From IMG/VR virus record IMGVR_UViG_3300050006_001381, positions 1-51,841 of that record: a DNA stretch of 51,841 nt. The stretch is one strand, 5' to 3'. Shown one piece after another: positions 11,358 to 21,085 of the stretch; the stretch's first letter is position 1, and each line of letters begins with the position of its first letter. The notes beneath the pieces are model-generated. The model did no database searches. It was given only the letters and a program-made list of their open reading frames with translations, and had not been told where the DNA came from. Position numbers and translations under genes: made by a program. Source of the stretch: a virus.

Positions 11358-12755
11358 TTGCCCAGCTGGGAGCTGCAGCTCATACGACGGATCCTGGAAG
11401 ACAAGGACTTCGACACCCCGAACAGGTTGTTCGGGATCGATGCCAGCCACTTCAACGACAGCGACGCGGCGCTGGTCTTCGACGACATCTACGCCTGGTG
11501 GCACGACCGTAGACATTACGGGCAGGTGCCACCTATCGAGTGGATCGAAGACCAGCACCCTTCGCTGGACCTGCCGGCCCCCCGGGCCGACATGGAATCC
11601 CTGTGCGACATCGTCAAGCAGGGGCACCTGAGGCAGCGGCTGGAGATCATCTCGGACGACCTGTTCAACAAGGTGAAGGAGGGAGAGGACCCCAGGGAGG
11701 CTCTGACCTACCTGATGGAGGCGGCGAACCAGCTGTCCCAATCCTCGGTGGAGGCGGGAGAGGACATCGACTTCGGAGCCACGGCCCACAAGGCCATCCG
11801 GCAGGAGGTCAAGGTCCTGGAGAGCGCGGACGGGATGCTGGGGTTCCCCTGGCCGTGGGAGATCATGAACGACGAGACCCAGGGGATCGTCAACGAGGGC
11901 CTGTACGTCCTGTACGGGCGGCCGAAGAGCATGAAGACGTGGCTCCTGACGAAGATCGTGGAGCACCTGTACACGGAGTGCTCCGCAAGGATCCTGGTCT
12001 GGTGCCGGGAGATGTCCCCCAAGCAGATGCGCAGGCGGCTGGCCTGCTGCATCGGGGAGGTCGACTACGGGCGGTACTCCAAGGGCCGGATGAACGCGGA
12101 CGAGCGGCGACGGCTGTTCGCGGCGTTGGACCTGATCAAGGAGGACGAGGATGCGGGAGTCGACTCGAGGCTGATGATCACGAAGGGGACGCACTCCGGG
12201 GCCGACGGGTCCGGGAGGTCCTTCTCGGAGATCGTCGCGAAGGCGGAGGAGTTCCAGCCGCAGGTGATCGTGCTCGACAGCGCGTACCACATGCAGAGCT
12301 CGACGAAGTGGCAGGACATCTATGCGCTCTGCCGTGGGCTGAAGAACCTGGCCGTGGACCTCGACGTGCCCGTGCTGTGCACGTGGCAGGCGAACCGCGG
12401 TGGGGACAAGACGAAGGGGCGGGAGCTGTCCGAGATCGCCCTGGGCGACTCGCTGGCGCAGGAAGCCGACTTCCTGATGAGGGTGCTCAAGCGGGGCACG
12501 AAGAAGCATCCGCTGCTGAGCTTGGTGGTGTCGGGGGCGAGGGAGACGGCGTTGGAGGGGTTCACGGTCAACGGCGTTCCGGCGTCGGACTTCAGCTTCT
12601 ACTCCGAGGAGATCTTGTGGGATCCCCCGGAGCCTGAGGAGAAGGACAACGAGCCCAGCAAGCGACGCAGGCGTACGGGAGAGGGGTCGGCCATCAAGTT
12701 CGGCACGGTCCCCGAGCCCCCGGAGCCTGACAACTACGACGAAGAGGATGTCTGA
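11358..12755 (+). CDS. DnaB-like replicative DNA helicase
   Basis: A 465-residue protein from TTG 11358 (AGGGGG six bases upstream). Residues 1-130 look like a DnaB-type helical N-terminal domain, and ~160-420 a RecA-fold ATPase. Walker A is YGRPKSMKTW (187-194 core), in which the Gly normally before the Lys is Met; Walker B is QVIVLDSAY (302-310). A later TWQANRGGDKTKG and GDSLAQEADFLMRV match the DnaB/RepA pattern of sensor and arginine-finger region. The C-terminal tail is acidic and basic, disordered. It should unwind DNA at the fork with the primase encoded next, whose start lies inside this gene's end. Confidence 0.88.
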   Translation: MPSWELQLIRRILEDKDFDTPNRLFGIDASHFNDSDAALVFDDIYAWWHDRRHYGQVPPIEWIEDQHPSLDLPAPRADMESLCDIVKQGHLRQRLEIISDDLFNKVKEGEDPREALTYLMEAANQLSQSSVEAGEDIDFGATAHKAIRQEVKVLESADGMLGFPWPWEIMNDETQGIVNEGLYVLYGRPKSMKTWLLTKIVEHLYTECSARILVWCREMSPKQMRRRLACCIGEVDYGRYSKGRMNADERRRLFAALDLIKEDEDAGVDSRLMITKGTHSGADGSGRSFSEIVAKAEEFQPQVIVLDSAYHMQSSTKWQDIYALCRGLKNLAVDLDVPVLCTWQANRGGDKTKGRELSEIALGDSLAQEADFLMRVLKRGTKKHPLLSLVVSGARETALEGFTVNGVPASDFSFYSEEILWDPPEPEEKDNEPSKRRRRTGEGSAIKFGTVPEPPEPDNYDEEDV

Positions 12756-13740
12756 CAGGGCGCTGCTCGCGATCCTGGCCAAGCACCTCCCTCGAGGGAG
12801 GCCGGGAGCGGGCGAGTATGCGTCGCCGTGCCCCTTCCACAAGGGGGGCCGGGAGAGGAGGCCGAGCTTCTCGGTCAACCTGGAGACGGGGTTGTCGTTC
12901 TGCCAGACCTGTCACCAGGGCTGGAACTTCAGGACGTTGTTGCAGGACCTGGGGCTCAACCAGCGCCAGGTCGATATCGAGATGGCGAAGCTCCCTTCGG
13001 GGTTCTCGACGCCGACGAAGAGGAAGTGCCTGTTCAAGGGGGAGCTCGCGTTCTCCCTGGACGACGTGTTGCCGGAGATCATCCTGGCGCCGTACCGGAA
13101 GAGGTGTCCGTCGTCATTGCTGCGCGCAGGGTTCGAGAAGGCCACGCTCAAGCACTTCGAGGTGGGCTACGACCGCACCGGGGAGAGAGTGATCTACCCG
13201 GTGCGGAACCACCGGGGCTCGCTGATCAACGTGGTCGGCCGGGTGTCGGAGCGCAGGAGGGGCGACGGGGACCCGAAGCACTTCCCGCTGGTGCGGGAGA
13301 TCAGGGAGTTCCTCGACAGGAGAGACTGGAAGCCGGGCAGGAAGCGGTACCTGTGGAACATGCACAGGGTCTACCCGGTGGCCTACCACGAGGACCTTGA
13401 TCAGGTGATCGTGGTCGAGGGCTACAAGCAGCTCATGTGGGTGTGGCAGTGCGGGTACAAGAACGTCGTCTCGTTGCTTGGCTCGTACATGACGCGGCCG
13501 CAGCGGACGCTGCTGAGGAGACTGGGTTGCGACGTCGTCCTGTTCTTGGACAACGACAAGGCCGGGTGGGACGGCACCTTGGAGGCCGCAATGGCGCTGA
13601 GGGGCGGATCCCACGACGTGAAGGTGTGTGAGTACCCGGAGGGCGCCAAACAGCCTGACGGGATGGACGAGGAGCAGGTGCAGGCCTGCATCGAGAACCC
13701 CCTAGACACTAGGACCTGGAGGAAACGACATGGGGTATGA
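12748..13740 (+). CDS. DnaG-type primase
   Basis: A 330-residue RNA primase, shorter than cellular DnaG because the C-terminal helicase-binding domain is absent. The N-terminal CHC2 zinc ribbon is C28, H31, C52, C55 (PCPFHKG...FCQTCHQG). A short RNA-polymerase-like middle (YDRTGERVIYPVRNHRGSLI) is followed by a TOPRIM domain with the catalytic Glu in VIVVEGYKQ and Asp pair in LFLDNDKAG. ATG 12748 overlaps the helicase stop by 8 bases, and GAAGAGG sits directly before it. This tight linkage fits a helicase-primase pair. The gene overlaps the SSB-like gene by 11 bases. Confidence 0.92.
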   Translation: MSDRALLAILAKHLPRGRPGAGEYASPCPFHKGGRERRPSFSVNLETGLSFCQTCHQGWNFRTLLQDLGLNQRQVDIEMAKLPSGFSTPTKRKCLFKGELAFSLDDVLPEIILAPYRKRCPSSLLRAGFEKATLKHFEVGYDRTGERVIYPVRNHRGSLINVVGRVSERRRGDGDPKHFPLVREIREFLDRRDWKPGRKRYLWNMHRVYPVAYHEDLDQVIVVEGYKQLMWVWQCGYKNVVSLLGSYMTRPQRTLLRRLGCDVVLFLDNDKAGWDGTLEAAMALRGGSHDVKVCEYPEGAKQPDGMDEEQVQACIENPLDTRTWRKRHGV

Positions 13741-14904: not shown

Positions 14905-16923
14905 ATGGCATTTGTCGTAGATGCGCCCGAGGCGGCCTACATCGGCACCGATGATCAGGCGACGCGGCTGCTGGAGAGGATCGGGAACTGGGACATGGTG
15001 GGGCTCGACACCGAGACCACCGGGCTGGACAGGATGAAGGACCAGGTCGTGTTCTGGTCCCTGGCGAACGGGGAGGAGCGGTACACGTTGCCGCGGAGGA
15101 TGCTGCGCCGGTTCCAGCGATTCCTCGAGGACGATTCGGTCACGTGGGCCGTCCAGAACTGCAACTTCGACGCAGCCATGCTGGCGAACGCGGGCATCGA
15201 GCACGTCAACAGGCGCGGCCGCCCGGTGGGCAACCGGGTGGATCCGATGGTGATGCACTGCCTGTACAAGGACGACGACCTCCATCACGGCCTGGACCGG
15301 ATCAGCAAGACCATGCTGGGGATCGGCAAGTACGCCTCCTACTCCGAGCTGTTCGGCAAGGAGGACATCTGGAAGATCCGGGAGGACCACCCGTCGTTCA
15401 ACGACATGGTGGAGTACGCCTCCTGGGACGCCTGGCTGCACTACCTGGCGGCCGAGGAGCTGATCAGGCGGCTGAAGCTGGAGGAGACCTGGTACGGGGA
15501 CCTGTGGGGCTACTACCAGATGATCGAGAGCCCGCTGCACGACGTGCTGCACGGGATGTCCCGACGAGGCGTGTTCGTGGACAGGGCCTACCTGCGCCCC
15601 AAGAGCGCGGAGGCGCTGATGAGGATGGAGGGGGCGGTGGAGAGGCTCTGCGAGATCGCCGGGCGCCCCATCAACCCTGGGAGCCCCAAGCAGCTCCAAG
15701 GGCTGTTCTACGACGAGCTGGGGATGCCCATCGAGCAGGAGACGTCGGGAGGCGCCAGCGGGAACAGGAAGGGCTCGACGGCCGAGGACGTGCTGATCTC
15801 CTGGAAGGAGCGGCCGCACATCGAGATGCAGAACGGCAAGGCGGTCAAGTACGGCCGCAAGCCCAAGGCCGGCGTCGAGATCAAGGAGTTCCCGATCCCG
15901 GCCAAGGTCAAGGAGTGCGTCGACATCATCCTCGAGTTCCGCAAGCACTCGAAGATGCGGGGCACCTACATCGAGGGCGTGCTCGACCGGCTGAACGAGG
16001 ACACGGGGTGGCGGATCCACGGAGACTTCACCCAGCACGTGGCGCGGACGGGACGGCTGTCGAGCCGGGACCCCAACCTGCAGAACCTGCCGCGGCCGGA
16101 GAACGACCCCTATGGAATCCGGCACGCCTACGTTCCCACGATGAGCGAGGAGGTCGACAGCGACTGGGTCATGCTCTGTGCGGACTACAGCCAGCTGGAG
16201 ATGATGCTGGCGGCGTCGAACAGCGACGACGAGGCGATGCTGGCGGCCATCCACTCGGGGAAGGACCTGCACTGCAACACCGCGGCGCTGATGTTCGGCA
16301 TTCCCTACGAGGACCTGAAGGCCGCCAAGGACAAGAAGGACCGGCGGGAGAACCTGACCTCGCGGGAGAAGGCGCTGATCCAGAAGAGGACGGCGGCCAA
16401 GACCATCGGGTTCGGGGTGCTGTACGGGGAAGGTCCGTGGAAGCTGGCGGAGCAGCTCAGTGTGTCGGTGGGGGAGGCCAAGAACCTGCAGAGGCTGTTC
16501 TTCGGGGCCTTCCCGGACCTCAAGGACCACATCGACGACGTGGAGAAGGTCTGCAAGAAGGAGGGCGTGGCGTTCACCGTGCTCGGCAGGCGCCGGCGGC
16601 TGCACAACGCGCAGAACGAGAGGAGCTGGGCCGAGAAGGCCAGGGCGCTGCGACAGGCGTTCAACTTCACGGTCCAGGGGTTCGCGTCGGAGATCGCCAA
16701 GCAGGCGATGATCTATCTGGCCCAGGACGAGGAGCTGCGCGACCTGGACTGCCACATGCTGGTGCAGGTCCATGACGAGCTCCTGTTCGAGTGCCCTCCC
16801 GAGAACAAGGAGAGGGCGAAGGAGCTGATCAAGTTGCACATGGAAAGGCCGTTCGGGGACATCTTGAAGGTGGACCTCAACGCCGACGTCGGCGAGGGCA
16901 TGTCCTGGCAGGACAGCAAATAG
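14905..16923 (+). CDS. polA: Family A DNA polymerase with proofreading domain
   Basis: A 672-residue replicative polymerase from ATG 14905 (AAAAAGGAG seven bases upstream). The 3'-5' exonuclease shows Exo I LDTETTGLD (~34-42), Exo II NCNFDAAML and Exo III YASWDAWL. Polymerase motif A is DYSQLEMMLAASNSDD (D427), motif B RTAAKTIGFGVLYGEG (495-510) and motif C VQVHDELLFE (H623, D624, E625). F503 aligns with E. coli Pol I F762. There is no 5' nuclease domain, as in T7-type phage enzymes. All catalytic residues are present. It follows the SSB-like gene after a hairpin. Confidence 0.95.
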   Translation: MAFVVDAPEAAYIGTDDQATRLLERIGNWDMVGLDTETTGLDRMKDQVVFWSLANGEERYTLPRRMLRRFQRFLEDDSVTWAVQNCNFDAAMLANAGIEHVNRRGRPVGNRVDPMVMHCLYKDDDLHHGLDRISKTMLGIGKYASYSELFGKEDIWKIREDHPSFNDMVEYASWDAWLHYLAAEELIRRLKLEETWYGDLWGYYQMIESPLHDVLHGMSRRGVFVDRAYLRPKSAEALMRMEGAVERLCEIAGRPINPGSPKQLQGLFYDELGMPIEQETSGGASGNRKGSTAEDVLISWKERPHIEMQNGKAVKYGRKPKAGVEIKEFPIPAKVKECVDIILEFRKHSKMRGTYIEGVLDRLNEDTGWRIHGDFTQHVARTGRLSSRDPNLQNLPRPENDPYGIRHAYVPTMSEEVDSDWVMLCADYSQLEMMLAASNSDDEAMLAAIHSGKDLHCNTAALMFGIPYEDLKAAKDKKDRRENLTSREKALIQKRTAAKTIGFGVLYGEGPWKLAEQLSVSVGEAKNLQRLFFGAFPDLKDHIDDVEKVCKKEGVAFTVLGRRRRLHNAQNERSWAEKARALRQAFNFTVQGFASEIAKQAMIYLAQDEELRDLDCHMLVQVHDELLFECPPENKERAKELIKLHMERPFGDILKVDLNADVGEGMSWQDSK

Positions 16924-17274
16924 GTGCTGATCACCAACCTGCAAGGGGTGGCGGCGACCAGGACCGCCCATGCAGCGAGGCTGGGGATGAACGAGAGCAC
17001 CCTGCGCGCCAGGGTGTACGCGCTGGGCTGGACGGACGAGGAGGCGTGCACCTACGGCAAGGGCACGAAGACGGAGAAGGTGTGCATGGACAGGGTGGGA
17101 CACCTGCGAGACCAGGTGGACCGCATAGAGAGGGACGTGACGAGGATCTTGGAGATGTTCACCGCGCTGATCAGGTCGGCGGACCGGCACGACGTGCGAG
17201 CCGTCCCTCCCAAGGAGCCGGAGAACAGCTCGAAGAAGTTCGGAGCCGTGCCCTCACCGACGGACCAATGGTGA
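16924..17274 (+). CDS. Small protein with HTH-like start and coiled coil
   Basis: A 116-residue product whose GTG directly follows the polymerase TAG; only AGGA nine bases upstream serves as a possible SD. Residues ~8-35 (GVAATRTAHAARLGMNESTL, then RARVYALGW) resemble a helix-turn-helix, and residues ~55-85 form a heptad coiled coil (DRVGHLRDQVDRIERDVTRI). The tail is disordered. It is probably a dimeric DNA-binding protein made with the polymerase, but the family is not recognised. Confidence 0.6.
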   Translation: MLITNLQGVAATRTAHAARLGMNESTLRARVYALGWTDEEACTYGKGTKTEKVCMDRVGHLRDQVDRIERDVTRILEMFTALIRSADRHDVRAVPPKEPENSSKKFGAVPSPTDQW

Positions 17275-17861
17275 ACAACGACAAGAAGGAGGTGCGGCCC
17301 TTGAACCTGATCAACGGCAGATGGCTCAACGACATGACGGACCCGGCCCAGCTGAGCCGGGACATGGCGGAGATCGGACCGCTGGGACTCGTGCGCTGCC
17401 TGCTGGGCGAGCGCAGGTTCTTCCCCAGCGGTCCGCCGGCGGGTGAGTGGAACGTGGCGGGGCACTCGATGCTGACAGCGTTGGTGTTCCTCAGGCTGAG
17501 GGAGGATGCGGGCTGGCCGCCGGAGTGGTTGGCCTTCGTGCTGCTGCACGACGCGCACGAGGGGTTCATCCGGGACATCCCGTCCCCGATCAAGCGCGCC
17601 ATCGGACCGATGTACAAGGACCTGGCGGACGGGGTGGACCGGGGGATCCGGGACTACCTGGGCATGCCCGACCCGTTGGAGCCGGCCCTGGCGGCGGTCA
17701 AGCACTGCGACCTGGTCGCTCTGCTGCTGGAGGCGATGGAGTGGGGCCTGACCATCGAGTCGGGCCCCGAGGACTTCCCGAAGGCGGTGGTCGCTGACTA
17801 CTACGCGTGCGGAGGCGGTGGGCCATGGAACTGGCGCAAGCCGATCAAGGAGGAAGGATGA
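17268..17861 (+). CDS. HD-domain phosphohydrolase (YfbR-like)
   Basis: A 197-residue protein. Conserved pieces are an N-terminal LINGRWLNDMTDP, then VAGHSML (first His), LLHDAHEGFIRDIPSPIK (HD plus second motif) and KHCD (last Asp region), the pattern of HD hydrolases related to 5'-deoxynucleotidase YfbR that trim nucleotide pools. ATG 17268 overlaps the previous stop. TTG 17301, which has AAGGAGG eight bases upstream and sits right at the family's usual N-terminus, is a serious alternative start giving 186 residues. The role is probably dNMP dephosphorylation or nucleotide-pool control. Confidence 0.78.
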   Translation: MVNNDKKEVRPLNLINGRWLNDMTDPAQLSRDMAEIGPLGLVRCLLGERRFFPSGPPAGEWNVAGHSMLTALVFLRLREDAGWPPEWLAFVLLHDAHEGFIRDIPSPIKRAIGPMYKDLADGVDRGIRDYLGMPDPLEPALAAVKHCDLVALLLEAMEWGLTIESGPEDFPKAVVADYYACGGGGPWNWRKPIKEEG

Positions 17862-19504
17862 CCAAGGCCGAGATCAAGGGGACCGCCAAGGAGGTCGCGG
17901 ACAGGGTGTATGCGGAGGCCGACTGCGACGGGTCCGGCTGCCAGCACTCGGTGGCCGACGGGGCGCGTCAGTGTGGCCGTGCGCCTCACCGCGAGGTTCA
18001 TGGCATCATGTGGTGCGGCATCCATGCCGCGAAGGTGGAGAAGCTCAATGGAAAAGCTGGCGGTCGTGACGGCGAAGCCGAAGCCGGGGGAGAAGAGGGC
18101 GCACGCGGAGAGCCCGGACCGGAACGTCCCGTGGGACCCGGAGAAGGGGACGAAGCCGTTCGAGGAGCGGCGGGACCCGAAGACGAAGAAGACCCCCTAA
18201 GCACCAGGGCGCGTCGGAGGAAGGAGCGCCAGGCCAAGAAGGCCAAGAAGGCGGCTCCGAAGAAGGCCAAGCCTCCCTCGAAGAAGAAGGCGGAACCACC
18301 GCGACCATTGAGCCGGGCGGAGCGCCTGGACGCGGAGATGGCCCGGATCGAGAAGGAGATGAAGGGCTCCATCTCGCTGAGGAAGGCAAGCGACCGGACC
18401 TACGCCTACAACGTGCGGCGGCCGACGGGGATCCTGGGACTGGACATCGGACTGGGCGGAGGCTTCCCGGCCGGCTCGGTGAACCAGCTGTACGGGGCGG
18501 ACGGCTCGGGCAAGAACCTCGTGATGAACTACGTCATCCGCGAGGTCCAGCGGAACTACGGCGATGACGCGGCGGTCCTGTATGTGCCCCTGGAGTACGG
18601 GTACGACAAGGTGTTCGCGTGGCACTGCGGCGTGGCCTGCCCCCTGACGGACACCGAGTTCGACCAGTACATGGAGGACGGTGACGGCGGGGCCTCGGAC
18701 GAGCAGGTCGAGATGGTGCGCAGGGAGGTCGGCAGGTTCTACCTGGCGGACCTGGGGCAGAAGGGGACGACGATCGCCGCGGAGGCGAAGTTCGAGGCGG
18801 CCATCGAGTCGCTGCAGACGGGGCTGTACCAGCTCATCTGCATCGACGGGCTCGGCGCGTTCCTGGGCAAGGACCAGAGGTTCAAGGGCGAAGGCAAGCG
18901 CCGTCGGCTGCAGGACTCGAGGAAGGTGGGCGTCAACGCGCGTCTGCTGACCGACTTCCTGGGCGAGGCGTTCTCCATCCTGGGGATGCCCGACGAGGAC
19001 GGCGGGCCCAACCAGACCACGGTGATCCTGAATTCGCAGCAGCGGGCGAACATCGTCGACAACCCCTACGCGGCGAAGTTCGCCAAGAAGGTGAAGCCGG
19101 TGGACAGCCGCGCACTGCTGCACGCCAAGGCGATGGACGTGGAGCTCAAGAAGATCAAGGCGCTCAAGAGGGAGATCCGCGGCCGCAAGAAGCTGGTGGG
19201 GCGCCTGACGGGCTGGGAGGTCATCAAGGGCAAGCTGGGGACGCACGAGGGCCACGAGGGCGAGTTCGAGCACTACTTCTCCACGGGGATCAACGTGGTG
19301 CCCGAGGCGGTGGCGACAGCACGCGCGCTGAGCGTGATCGTCAGCCGCGGAGCGAAGGTCTACGGGCCCTGGGGTGACAAGGGGAAGACCAAGGACGGCG
19401 TCGAGGAGTACTACGACGAGGGCTCCGAGCAGGACGAGCGGCTGGAGGTCCTCCGCAGGGCATGCTTCCGCAAAGCCGGGCTGAACGTGCGGTTCTCGGC
19501 GTAG
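17858..19504 (+). CDS. RecA/UvsX-like recombinase with Cys-rich N-terminal extension
   Basis: A continuous 548-codon frame from ATG 17858 (AAGGAGG upstream). Residues 1-63 hold a possible zinc site (C23, C28, C39, C53 with nearby His). Residues 64-114 are a Gly/Glu-rich linker whose codons do not fit the genome bias. Residues ~115-150 are Lys/Ala/Pro-rich, and ~165-548 are the RecA core: Walker A GADGSGKN (213-220), Walker B LICIDGLGAF, and a strand plus DNA-loop region TTVILNSQQRANI. Asn replaces the usual Ser/Thr after the Walker Lys. The true recombinase start is uncertain: in-frame TTG 18308 or ATG 18338 would remove the extension. See the nested frame at 18048-18200. Confidence 0.75.
   Translation: MTKAEIKGTAKEVADRVYAEADCDGSGCQHSVADGARQCGRAPHREVHGIMWCGIHAAKVEKLNGKAGGRDGEAEAGGEEGARGEPGPERPVGPGEGDEAVRGAAGPEDEEDPLSTRARRRKERQAKKAKKAAPKKAKPPSKKKAEPPRPLSRAERLDAEMARIEKEMKGSISLRKASDRTYAYNVRRPTGILGLDIGLGGGFPAGSVNQLYGADGSGKNLVMNYVIREVQRNYGDDAAVLYVPLEYGYDKVFAWHCGVACPLTDTEFDQYMEDGDGGASDEQVEMVRREVGRFYLADLGQKGTTIAAEAKFEAAIESLQTGLYQLICIDGLGAFLGKDQRFKGEGKRRRLQDSRKVGVNARLLTDFLGEAFSILGMPDEDGGPNQTTVILNSQQRANIVDNPYAAKFAKKVKPVDSRALLHAKAMDVELKKIKALKREIRGRKKLVGRLTGWEVIKGKLGTHEGHEGEFEHYFSTGINVVPEAVATARALSVIVSRGAKVYGPWGDKGKTKDGVEEYYDEGSEQDERLEVLRRACFRKAGLNVRFSA
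18048..18200 (+). CDS. Nested frame with genome-like codon bias
   Basis: A 50-residue basic frame, one base ahead of the recombinase frame, starting at ATG 18048 with GGAG seven bases upstream and ending at TAA 18198. Nearly every codon ends in G or C, against about half in the overlapping recombinase frame, so selection has acted on this frame. It ends PFEERRDPKTKKTP at a run of five C followed by TAA, where a -1 slip would lead straight into the Lys/Ala-rich start of RecA. It is either a separate micro-gene or the original frame of a linker now bounded by two compensating shifts. Confidence 0.5.
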   Translation: MEKLAVVTAKPKPGEKRAHAESPDRNVPWDPEKGTKPFEERRDPKTKKTP

Positions 19505-19507
19505 CCA

Positions 19508-20044
19508 ATGGGCTCCGAGGTCCGCAGGCAGGTCTGCGAAGGATGCTGGCGGGAGTGCCGGTATGCGGACTTCCGGGACTCGGTGCCCACCAAGCGGAAG
19601 AGGGGAGCTCACGGCGCCGCGGTGGAGCGTCGTGAGTTCCTGCAGGTGGCGGACGACAAGGCCCGGGAGGTCACCCAGAACATCAGTGACGGCGTCGGCG
19701 ACCGTCTCACGAAGGCCAAGATCCTCGGGAAGATGCACGAGGAGAAGCAGGCCCAGTGGGAGAGGGAGACCACCGAGTGCTTCTATCGGGGGCAGCAGCT
19801 GCCGGACACGACGGAGGACGCACTGATCTGGGTGGTGGGCATGGGGGACAAGCGGTTCCGCATCGAGGTGCAGGGCTGGTCCGAGGACCAATGGAAGAGG
19901 CGGGAGAGGATCCGCAGGCCGGTCACGGCGCGCACGTTCCTGCGTTGGTGGGGCAAGGCGCGTCAGCGCAGCCTGGAGGACGACCTGGACAGACCGAACC
20001 TGAAGGCCCCCGGCGTGGGGATCGGAGACCCATGGACGACCTGA
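19508..20044 (+). CDS. Unknown protein with N-terminal Cys cluster
   Basis: A 178-residue product from ATG 19508, three bases after the recombinase stop and without a visible SD, so probably translated by coupling. C10, C13 and C17 (VCEGCWREC) plus a later Cys may form a metal knuckle. The middle is a long charged helix (TKAKILGKMHEEKQAQWERE), followed by a beta-like WVVGMGDKRFRIEVQGW and a basic WKRRERIRRP helix. A recombination accessory role would fit its position but is not shown. Confidence 0.66.
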   Translation: MGSEVRRQVCEGCWRECRYADFRDSVPTKRKRGAHGAAVERREFLQVADDKAREVTQNISDGVGDRLTKAKILGKMHEEKQAQWERETTECFYRGQQLPDTTEDALIWVVGMGDKRFRIEVQGWSEDQWKRRERIRRPVTARTFLRWWGKARQRSLEDDLDRPNLKAPGVGIGDPWTT

Positions 20045-20367
20045 AGCGGTGGAGGCGGACGGAGGAGAGGATCGCAGATGATCTGGGCGGCCACGCCCAG
20101 GCGGGCTCGGGCAACCAAGCCAACTTCCGCGGTGACATCCGGGTGCACGGTTTTCTCCGGGTACAAGGAAAGACGGTCCTGAAGGGCAGGTCCACATCCT
20201 TGAAGCTGGACGACTGGGAGGAGGTGCTGGACCAGGCCCTGCGGGCAGGGGAGATGCCGGCGATGGTGTACCGCTTCGTAGAGGGGCGGGACACCCTGCT
20301 GGCCGTGATCGACTACGACGATTTCCAGGAGCTGATGAAGCTCAAGAAGGAGCGAGATGGCGAATGA
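20032..20367 (+). CDS. Hjc-like PD-(D/E)XK nuclease fold, active site altered
   Basis: A 111-residue protein from ATG 20032. The layout matches small archaeal/phage Holliday junction resolvase-like nucleases: WRRTEERIADDLGG (E11/E12), AGSGNQANFRGDI (GSG at 25-27, D35), then a core strand, and a helix with EVLDQALRAGEMPAMVYRFV. At the core strand, where an E-x-K motif is expected, it reads VLKGRSTS, so the catalytic Glu appears to be replaced by Lys and the Lys by Arg. It may be a structure-specific DNA-binding or inactive partner. It overlaps the next gene by 11 bases. Confidence 0.5.
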   Translation: MDDLKRWRRTEERIADDLGGHAQAGSGNQANFRGDIRVHGFLRVQGKTVLKGRSTSLKLDDWEEVLDQALRAGEMPAMVYRFVEGRDTLLAVIDYDDFQELMKLKKERDGE

Positions 20368-21085
20368 CACGCTGATGTCCATCAGGGACCTCAAGACGGT
20401 CGACGAGGAGGTGAAGAGGGAGCTTCGGGACGACATCCCGATCCTGAACGAGCTGCACGCGTTCCTGTGGCACGAGAAGAACGCGTCGGACGACCCCTGG
20501 AGGAGCAGCGGGTACTACTCGCCGTCATCCCTCGCCTACTGCGCAAGGGCGATGTACTACCAGCGGACCGAGGTGGAGCAGAGGAACTGCCTGGAGGCGC
20601 AGACCCGGATCACGTTCGGGGTCGGGCACGCGGTGCACGACATGCTGCAGAGCTGGCTGGTGGAGGCGCTGGGAGAGGACGCGGTGGAGATGGAGGTGGT
20701 GTGCACCGACGAGGACCTGCACATCAAGGGGGCGGCGGATGGCCTGTTGGAGCTCGAGCACTTCCGCAAGCTGCTGGAGATCAAGACCATCAGTGCGAAG
20801 GGCTACGCCGACCTGAGCAAGCCCAAGCCCGAGCACGTCCTGCAGACGCACTGCTACGCGTATATGCTCGACACCCCGCTGATCGACTACATCTACGTGT
20901 CGAAGGAGTGGCCGCACGAGATCAAGGTGTTCAGCACCTTCTTCGACCGTGTGGTCTGGGGCAAGGCGCGGGACAAGCTGGAGTCGATCGAAGCCTGCGT
21001 GCAGGCCGAGAACCCGCCTCCGCAGGAGGTCGGACGAGGCTGCTGGGAGTGCAAGTTCCGCTGGCACTGCGAGCCGGACCTGTAA
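20357..21085 (+). CDS. Cas4/RecB-like Fe-S exonuclease
   Basis: A 242-residue PD-(D/E)XK nuclease from ATG 20357 (AAGGAG four bases upstream). C62 (AYCARAMYYQR) and C229, C232, C238 (GCWECKFRWHC) are placed as in Cas4/AddB iron-sulfur nucleases. The catalytic core reads HIKGAADGLLE, then LLEIKTIS (E-x-K), then the QTHCYAY motif (Q-x-x-x-Y). Such phage enzymes resect DNA ends for recombination-dependent replication. Lying right after RecA and before RusA-like genes supports that role. There is no cas1/cas2 or CRISPR array in the window, so it is not part of an adaptation module. Confidence 0.85.
   Translation: MANDTLMSIRDLKTVDEEVKRELRDDIPILNELHAFLWHEKNASDDPWRSSGYYSPSSLAYCARAMYYQRTEVEQRNCLEAQTRITFGVGHAVHDMLQSWLVEALGEDAVEMEVVCTDEDLHIKGAADGLLELEHFRKLLEIKTISAKGYADLSKPKPEHVLQTHCYAYMLDTPLIDYIYVSKEWPHEIKVFSTFFDRVVWGKARDKLESIEACVQAENPPPQEVGRGCWECKFRWHCEPDL

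Follow-up and report, generated by a model that had tools for sequence, protein, structure and literature searches.

The recombinase gene of this virus lies in an open frame whose coding signal leaves it and then returns, and the question raised by the locus is what stands between the two parts of that frame and where the translation of RecA begins. The DNA analysed (the window) spans one complete virus record of IMG/VR, 51,841 bases long with a G+C content of 66.5%, carrying a replication cluster in the order helicase, primase, DNA polymerase I, the A/B/recA region and a Cas4-like nuclease (Table 1). A first-pass annotation had described a RecA frame open from position 17858 with a Cys/His-rich start, and this is what the sequence holds, a single open frame from ATG 17858 to TAG 19504 (548 aa) with a start and a Shine-Dalgarno (SD) sequence (-11.2). 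The whole region is very probably an ordinary junction at which three coding segments meet, namely a segment A, a small gene B and the body of recA. One real oddity is the missing start of recA, which fits no simple model.

Table 1. Features of the replication cluster and of the A/B/recA region (positions of the window; SD values are duplex energies)
Feature	Position	Strand	Evidence or remark
Helicase	11358-12755		Replication cluster
Primase	12748-13740		Replication cluster
DNA polymerase I (family A)	14905..16923	+	PF00476, 3.9e-88; 52.5% identity to L024 Pol
Three ORFs (16924-17274, 17268-17861 and A)	16924..18047	+	Between pol and B; absent from syntenic L024
Gene/segment A, Cys/His-rich (CDGSGCQH...CGRAPH...WCGIH)	17858..18047	+	Codon log-odds in text; SD -11.2
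Likely Shine-Dalgarno of B, GGTGGAG	18034..18040	+	Sequence; -7.8
Gene B, 50 aa	18048..18200	+	HMM of relatives only, E=1.5e-10; L024 orthologue
GTG, nearest canonical in-frame start upstream	18131..18133	+	-70 from B stop; SD -4.1
CCC TAA, end of B (slip site proposed earlier)	18195..18200	+	Sequence
Putative RecA/UvsX-like recombinase body	18206..19504	+	phrog_97 UvsX-like, 6e-18; PF00154, 1.9e-8; 49% identity to L024 RecA
AGG where L024 recA has ATG	18206..18208	+	5 nt past B stop; R-ARRRKE vs M-ARGKKK by eye
TTG, first canonical in-frame start downstream	18308..18310	+	+107 from B stop; SD -7.4; would drop Lys-rich tail
Cas4-like nuclease	20357-21085		Weak match; after recA region

Coding signal across A, B and recA

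The first-pass annotation also stated that the coding signal moves to the +1 frame and then back, and both third-position G/C and a log-odds model of codon usage (trained on the window's remaining genes, scores in bits) bear this out. The third position is G or C in 55 of 63 codons of the RecA frame over 17858-18047, in 49/50 codons of the inner (+1) frame against 24/49 of the RecA frame over 18048-18197, and again in 45/52 codons of the RecA frame over 18201-18359. In the log-odds model, the A/RecA frame scores +24.2 over 17858-18046 (-56.5 and -65.3 in the other frames), the inner frame +32.8 over 18048-18197 (-37.6 and -59.8) and the RecA frame +8.6 over 18201-18308 (-41.7 and -21.6), its signal resuming at about 18201. 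The coding signal switches frame because the gene changes, and the frame jump is, as judged from homology and codon signal, a normal boundary between genes, where a small family member intervenes.

An uninterrupted RecA frame across B is no surprise, its chance expectation being 40-74%. To produce a stop there, a codon of B would have to end in T and be followed by AA, AG or GA, and the frame is open because no codon of B has T in its third position. Given the B protein and the codon usage of the genome, the probability of meeting no stop across B is 0.40, and a 51-codon stretch of the -1 frame is free of stops at 74% of positions in the window's confident genes. In three relatives, the RecA frame is likewise open through the whole of B and recA still has its own start at the junction.

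Upstream of B, the start of A overlaps the stop of the preceding gene (ATGA). The codon signal, the SD and the Cys/His spacing are what argue for A as a real gene; its second half is weaker (only +1.5 bits of codon log-odds over 17951-18046), and no significant homologue of A was found in the relatives or in phage collections. A has no stop of its own, the frame running on into RecA to 19504; the original 3' end of A may have been lost. Three ORFs precede B, a 116-aa ORF, an ORF with HD-hydrolase-like motifs (no homologue in viral contigs) and the Cys/His-rich A. As neither A nor the two ORFs preceding it occur in the closest relative, the uncultivated-phage locus L024, A is part of a stretch that is present here and not in L024.

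Gene B and its family

Relatives of the region were collected from viral contigs by scans with a core fragment, a DNA pattern, and three-row and seven-row RecA alignments, the alignments giving relatives at 24-49% identity, and most of them carry a small ORF before recA. Scans of the viral contigs with the window protein alone or with a two-row alignment gave nothing new, no relatives were found in genome contigs, and nucleotide and protein searches of isolate phages returned no close relative of the region, Pol giving distant matches only. L024 (RecA 49% and Pol 52.5% identity) is collinear with the window by tblastn and by its own ORFs, with the order pol, B, recA. Its B has a 44-aa core (MTKYAVEVEK...NVPWTEKDGTKPFEKK), and its recA has its own ATG, which overlaps the B stop as TAATG.

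In 44 distinct uncultivated-phage loci, a small ORF of this kind lies 5' of RecA/UvsX. The family spans L024 to L088 upstream of recA (e.g., L058 3718-3873 and L087 3612-3791), with the motif MxKYGV...GTxPFE. A zinc-ribbon-like centre (CPxCG...CPxHG) is present in 28 of the 44 members, while the B of the window, like the other 16, has no zinc-ribbon cysteines, these sequences retaining only MxKYAV...NxPxDPxKGxxPFE. On this sequence pattern, the absence of cysteines marks a Cys-less branch, and the zinc-ribbon cysteines do not define the family. There is no convincing match of the family in Pfam, PHROGs or NCBIfam, where its members meet weak hits to generic zinc-ribbon models only, and tblastn of one zinc-ribbon member against isolate phages found nothing. 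In four loci (L009 5372-5803, L019 4967-5512, L020 4952-5482 and L021 5030-5500), an HU-like protein and a zinc-ribbon B share one open frame, which may be a fusion.

The inner frame of the window encodes a protein beginning MEKLAVVTAK...NVPWDPEKGTKPFEERR... from an ATG and ends ACC CCC TAA; that it had its own SD and ATG and ended at CCC TAA had been seen at first pass, and the sequence confirms it. An earlier zinc-ribbon profile of six distant relatives had left its membership unsettled, with 5/20000 shuffles reaching its score and a non-significant rank across the window. The profile of the 44 members, from which the window was excluded, settled it: of 974 six-frame segments, 18048-18197 alone is clearly significant (E=1.5e-10), the runner-up having 0.038. 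With a profile restricted to the 16 Cys-less members, B aligns from its Met (E=1.4e-11), and none of 20000 shuffles reached the score of either profile. B matches the family along its whole length without any correction of the sequence, and it lies directly 5' of recA on the same strand, as family members do. The structure model of B is mostly extended (pLDDT 65). By sequence and position, the inner frame is thus an independent small gene with its own SD, ATG and TAA, an ordinary neighbour of recA. Of the overprinted micro-gene proposed earlier, the small gene stands, with homologues at the same place in 44 loci; there is no sign of an origin by overprinting.

The first-pass annotation offered further readings. 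In one, a single gene would carry a pair of compensating indels, or of sequencing errors, where the inner frame has its edges, which would account for the identical frames before and after it. These edges are, however, a true start and a true stop at which the homologous genes also begin and end, so this reading is ruled out. The other reading, a programmed -1 frameshift at ACC CCC TAA joining B to RecA and giving two forms of the recombinase, is highly improbable. A tRNA on CCC would re-pair perfectly one base back and continue in the RecA frame, but this would be a single P-site slippage at a stop, as ACC does not re-pair on GAC and there is no tandem re-pairing. The next codon would be the rare CTA (11 of 1181 Leu codons), folding downstream is not exceptional (z -1.5 to -2.2), with no marked structure that could act as a stimulator, and CCC-TAA occurs at none of the listed B ends of relatives. 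The comparison with related phages that had been suggested as a check shows ordinary separate B and recA genes, the latter with their own starts, so no frameshift is needed. In place of the supposed frameshift stands a family of small genes that dozens of uncultivated phages carry immediately 5' of recA/uvsX.

B and recA are immediate neighbours in 30 relatives; in 28 of these a recA start codon (ATG or GTG) falls within -40 to +10 nt of the B stop, and the likely starts reach no further upstream than about -41. In L067, L072, L078 and L079, a GGAG or GAAGG at or just past the conserved PFE end of B looks, from its sequence and position, like the SD of an overlapping recA start. B is probably translated independently, and genes of its family usually adjoin or overlap the start of recA, which is the geometry of termination-reinitiation coupling. 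Overlaps of this kind couple translation, genes for subunits of the same complex are over-represented in overlapping pairs, and reinitiation is nearly abolished by a separation of about 20 nt (PMC10666635). From this coupling-type arrangement we infer that B and RecA are probably synthesised jointly, and they may act together. As a conserved gene that often overlaps recA and has one branch without zinc ligands, B is a candidate partner or loader of RecA, and may help it in such a role.

Routes to RecA

The body of recA encodes a Lys/Arg-rich N-terminal tail, which resembles the one in the relatives, followed by a conserved core from about 18329, with a Walker A motif (GADGSGKN; GKN also in L024) and a PF00154 match of 34.5 bits, above the cut-off of 27. 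These matches identify it as a putative RecA/UvsX recombinase; tblastn of the full product against isolate phages gave no match at E<1e-5. Beyond recA, a Cys-containing ORF (19508-20044) stands before the next syntenic gene, and L024 does not have it at that place; it shows a weak Radical_SAM match (6e-4, under the cut-off) and starts TAG-CCA-ATG without a good SD (-2.4).

The first-pass annotation was right that no good in-frame start of recA lies at the junction. There is no ATG, GTG or TTG in the RecA frame from -69 to +106 of the B stop, and GTG 18131 and TTG 18308 are the nearest. Among the routes that could nevertheless produce RecA, a fusion is ranked first because it explains both the missing start of recA and the missing stop of A. 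Translation from 17858 would yield a 548-aa A-linker-RecA protein whose linker comes from the DNA of B read out of phase, and B would lie nested inside. This protein may well be the main source of RecA, at a likelihood a little short of even, and no counterpart of the fused form was seen in relatives. More tentatively, the locus could be one in which a new domain, the Cys/His-rich A, has been fused to RecA through the wrong-frame reading of an unrelated and still functional B, with the start of recA lost and B translated inside. If the fusion is true, it would be a worked example of a linker derived from a different gene read in the wrong frame. In the structure model of the 548-aa product, the RecA core is confident and most of residues 14-138 are of low confidence, which gives no help in choosing among the readings.

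Ranked second is a start of RecA's own at 18206, coupled to the end of translation of B 5 nt before it; the AGG at 18206 would then be a sequencing or assembly error or a recent mutation of ATG. Where recA of L024 begins ATG GCT CGG GGC AAG AAG (M-A-R-G-K-K), the window has AGG GCG CGT CGG AGG AAG, a correspondence made by eye, as automatic alignment does not settle this low-complexity AGG/ATG stretch. M-A-x-K/R-K begins recA at this place in many relatives, and the next gene of the window (19508) likewise follows a stop with an ATG and an SD as weak (-2.4). An error or mutation at 18206 would, however, explain only one oddity, leaving the absent stop of A without a reason. AGG would be expected to work very poorly as a start codon, as IF3 accepts nothing but Watson-Crick pairing at the first two positions (PMC10158994). 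Altogether, an own start at 18206 is rather doubtful.

Less probable still is GTG 18131 as the start, a codon that lies within B but not in the frame of B and precedes the end of the B stop by 70 nt. The codon is canonical and in frame with RecA, and relatives commonly have a recA start overlapping the end of B. Its SD (-4.1), however, is near the median of random positions (-4.0), the likely starts of the adjacent relatives stop well short of it at about -41, and it would add 25 residues from the alternative frame of B that have no counterpart. An equally small share of the probability falls jointly to the remaining routes, namely TTG 18308, a frameshift and a route of some unknown kind. TTG 18308 probably comes too late, as the coding signal and the Lys-rich tail begin about 100 nt upstream (about 18201-18206).

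Comparison with known systems

Known small zinc-ribbon proteins (for example FmdB-type CxxC_CxxC, RpoP and the Csl4 zinc ribbon) resemble the centre of 28 of the 44 B-family ORFs, at the level of weak model matches. The flanking motifs of the family fit none of them, however, and the B of the window is without cysteines. Among phage UvsX/RecA-like recombinases, the RecA core of the window matches both phrog_97 and PF00154, and recA of L024 matches phrog_97; the RecA of the window is divergent, with its Lys/Arg-rich N-terminal tail and no canonical start at the B junction. Although the window differs from coupled overlapping gene pairs in offering its downstream gene no canonical start at the junction, B and recA lie, like the members of termination-reinitiation coupled pairs, within tens of nucleotides of each other, often overlapping and in one order across phages.
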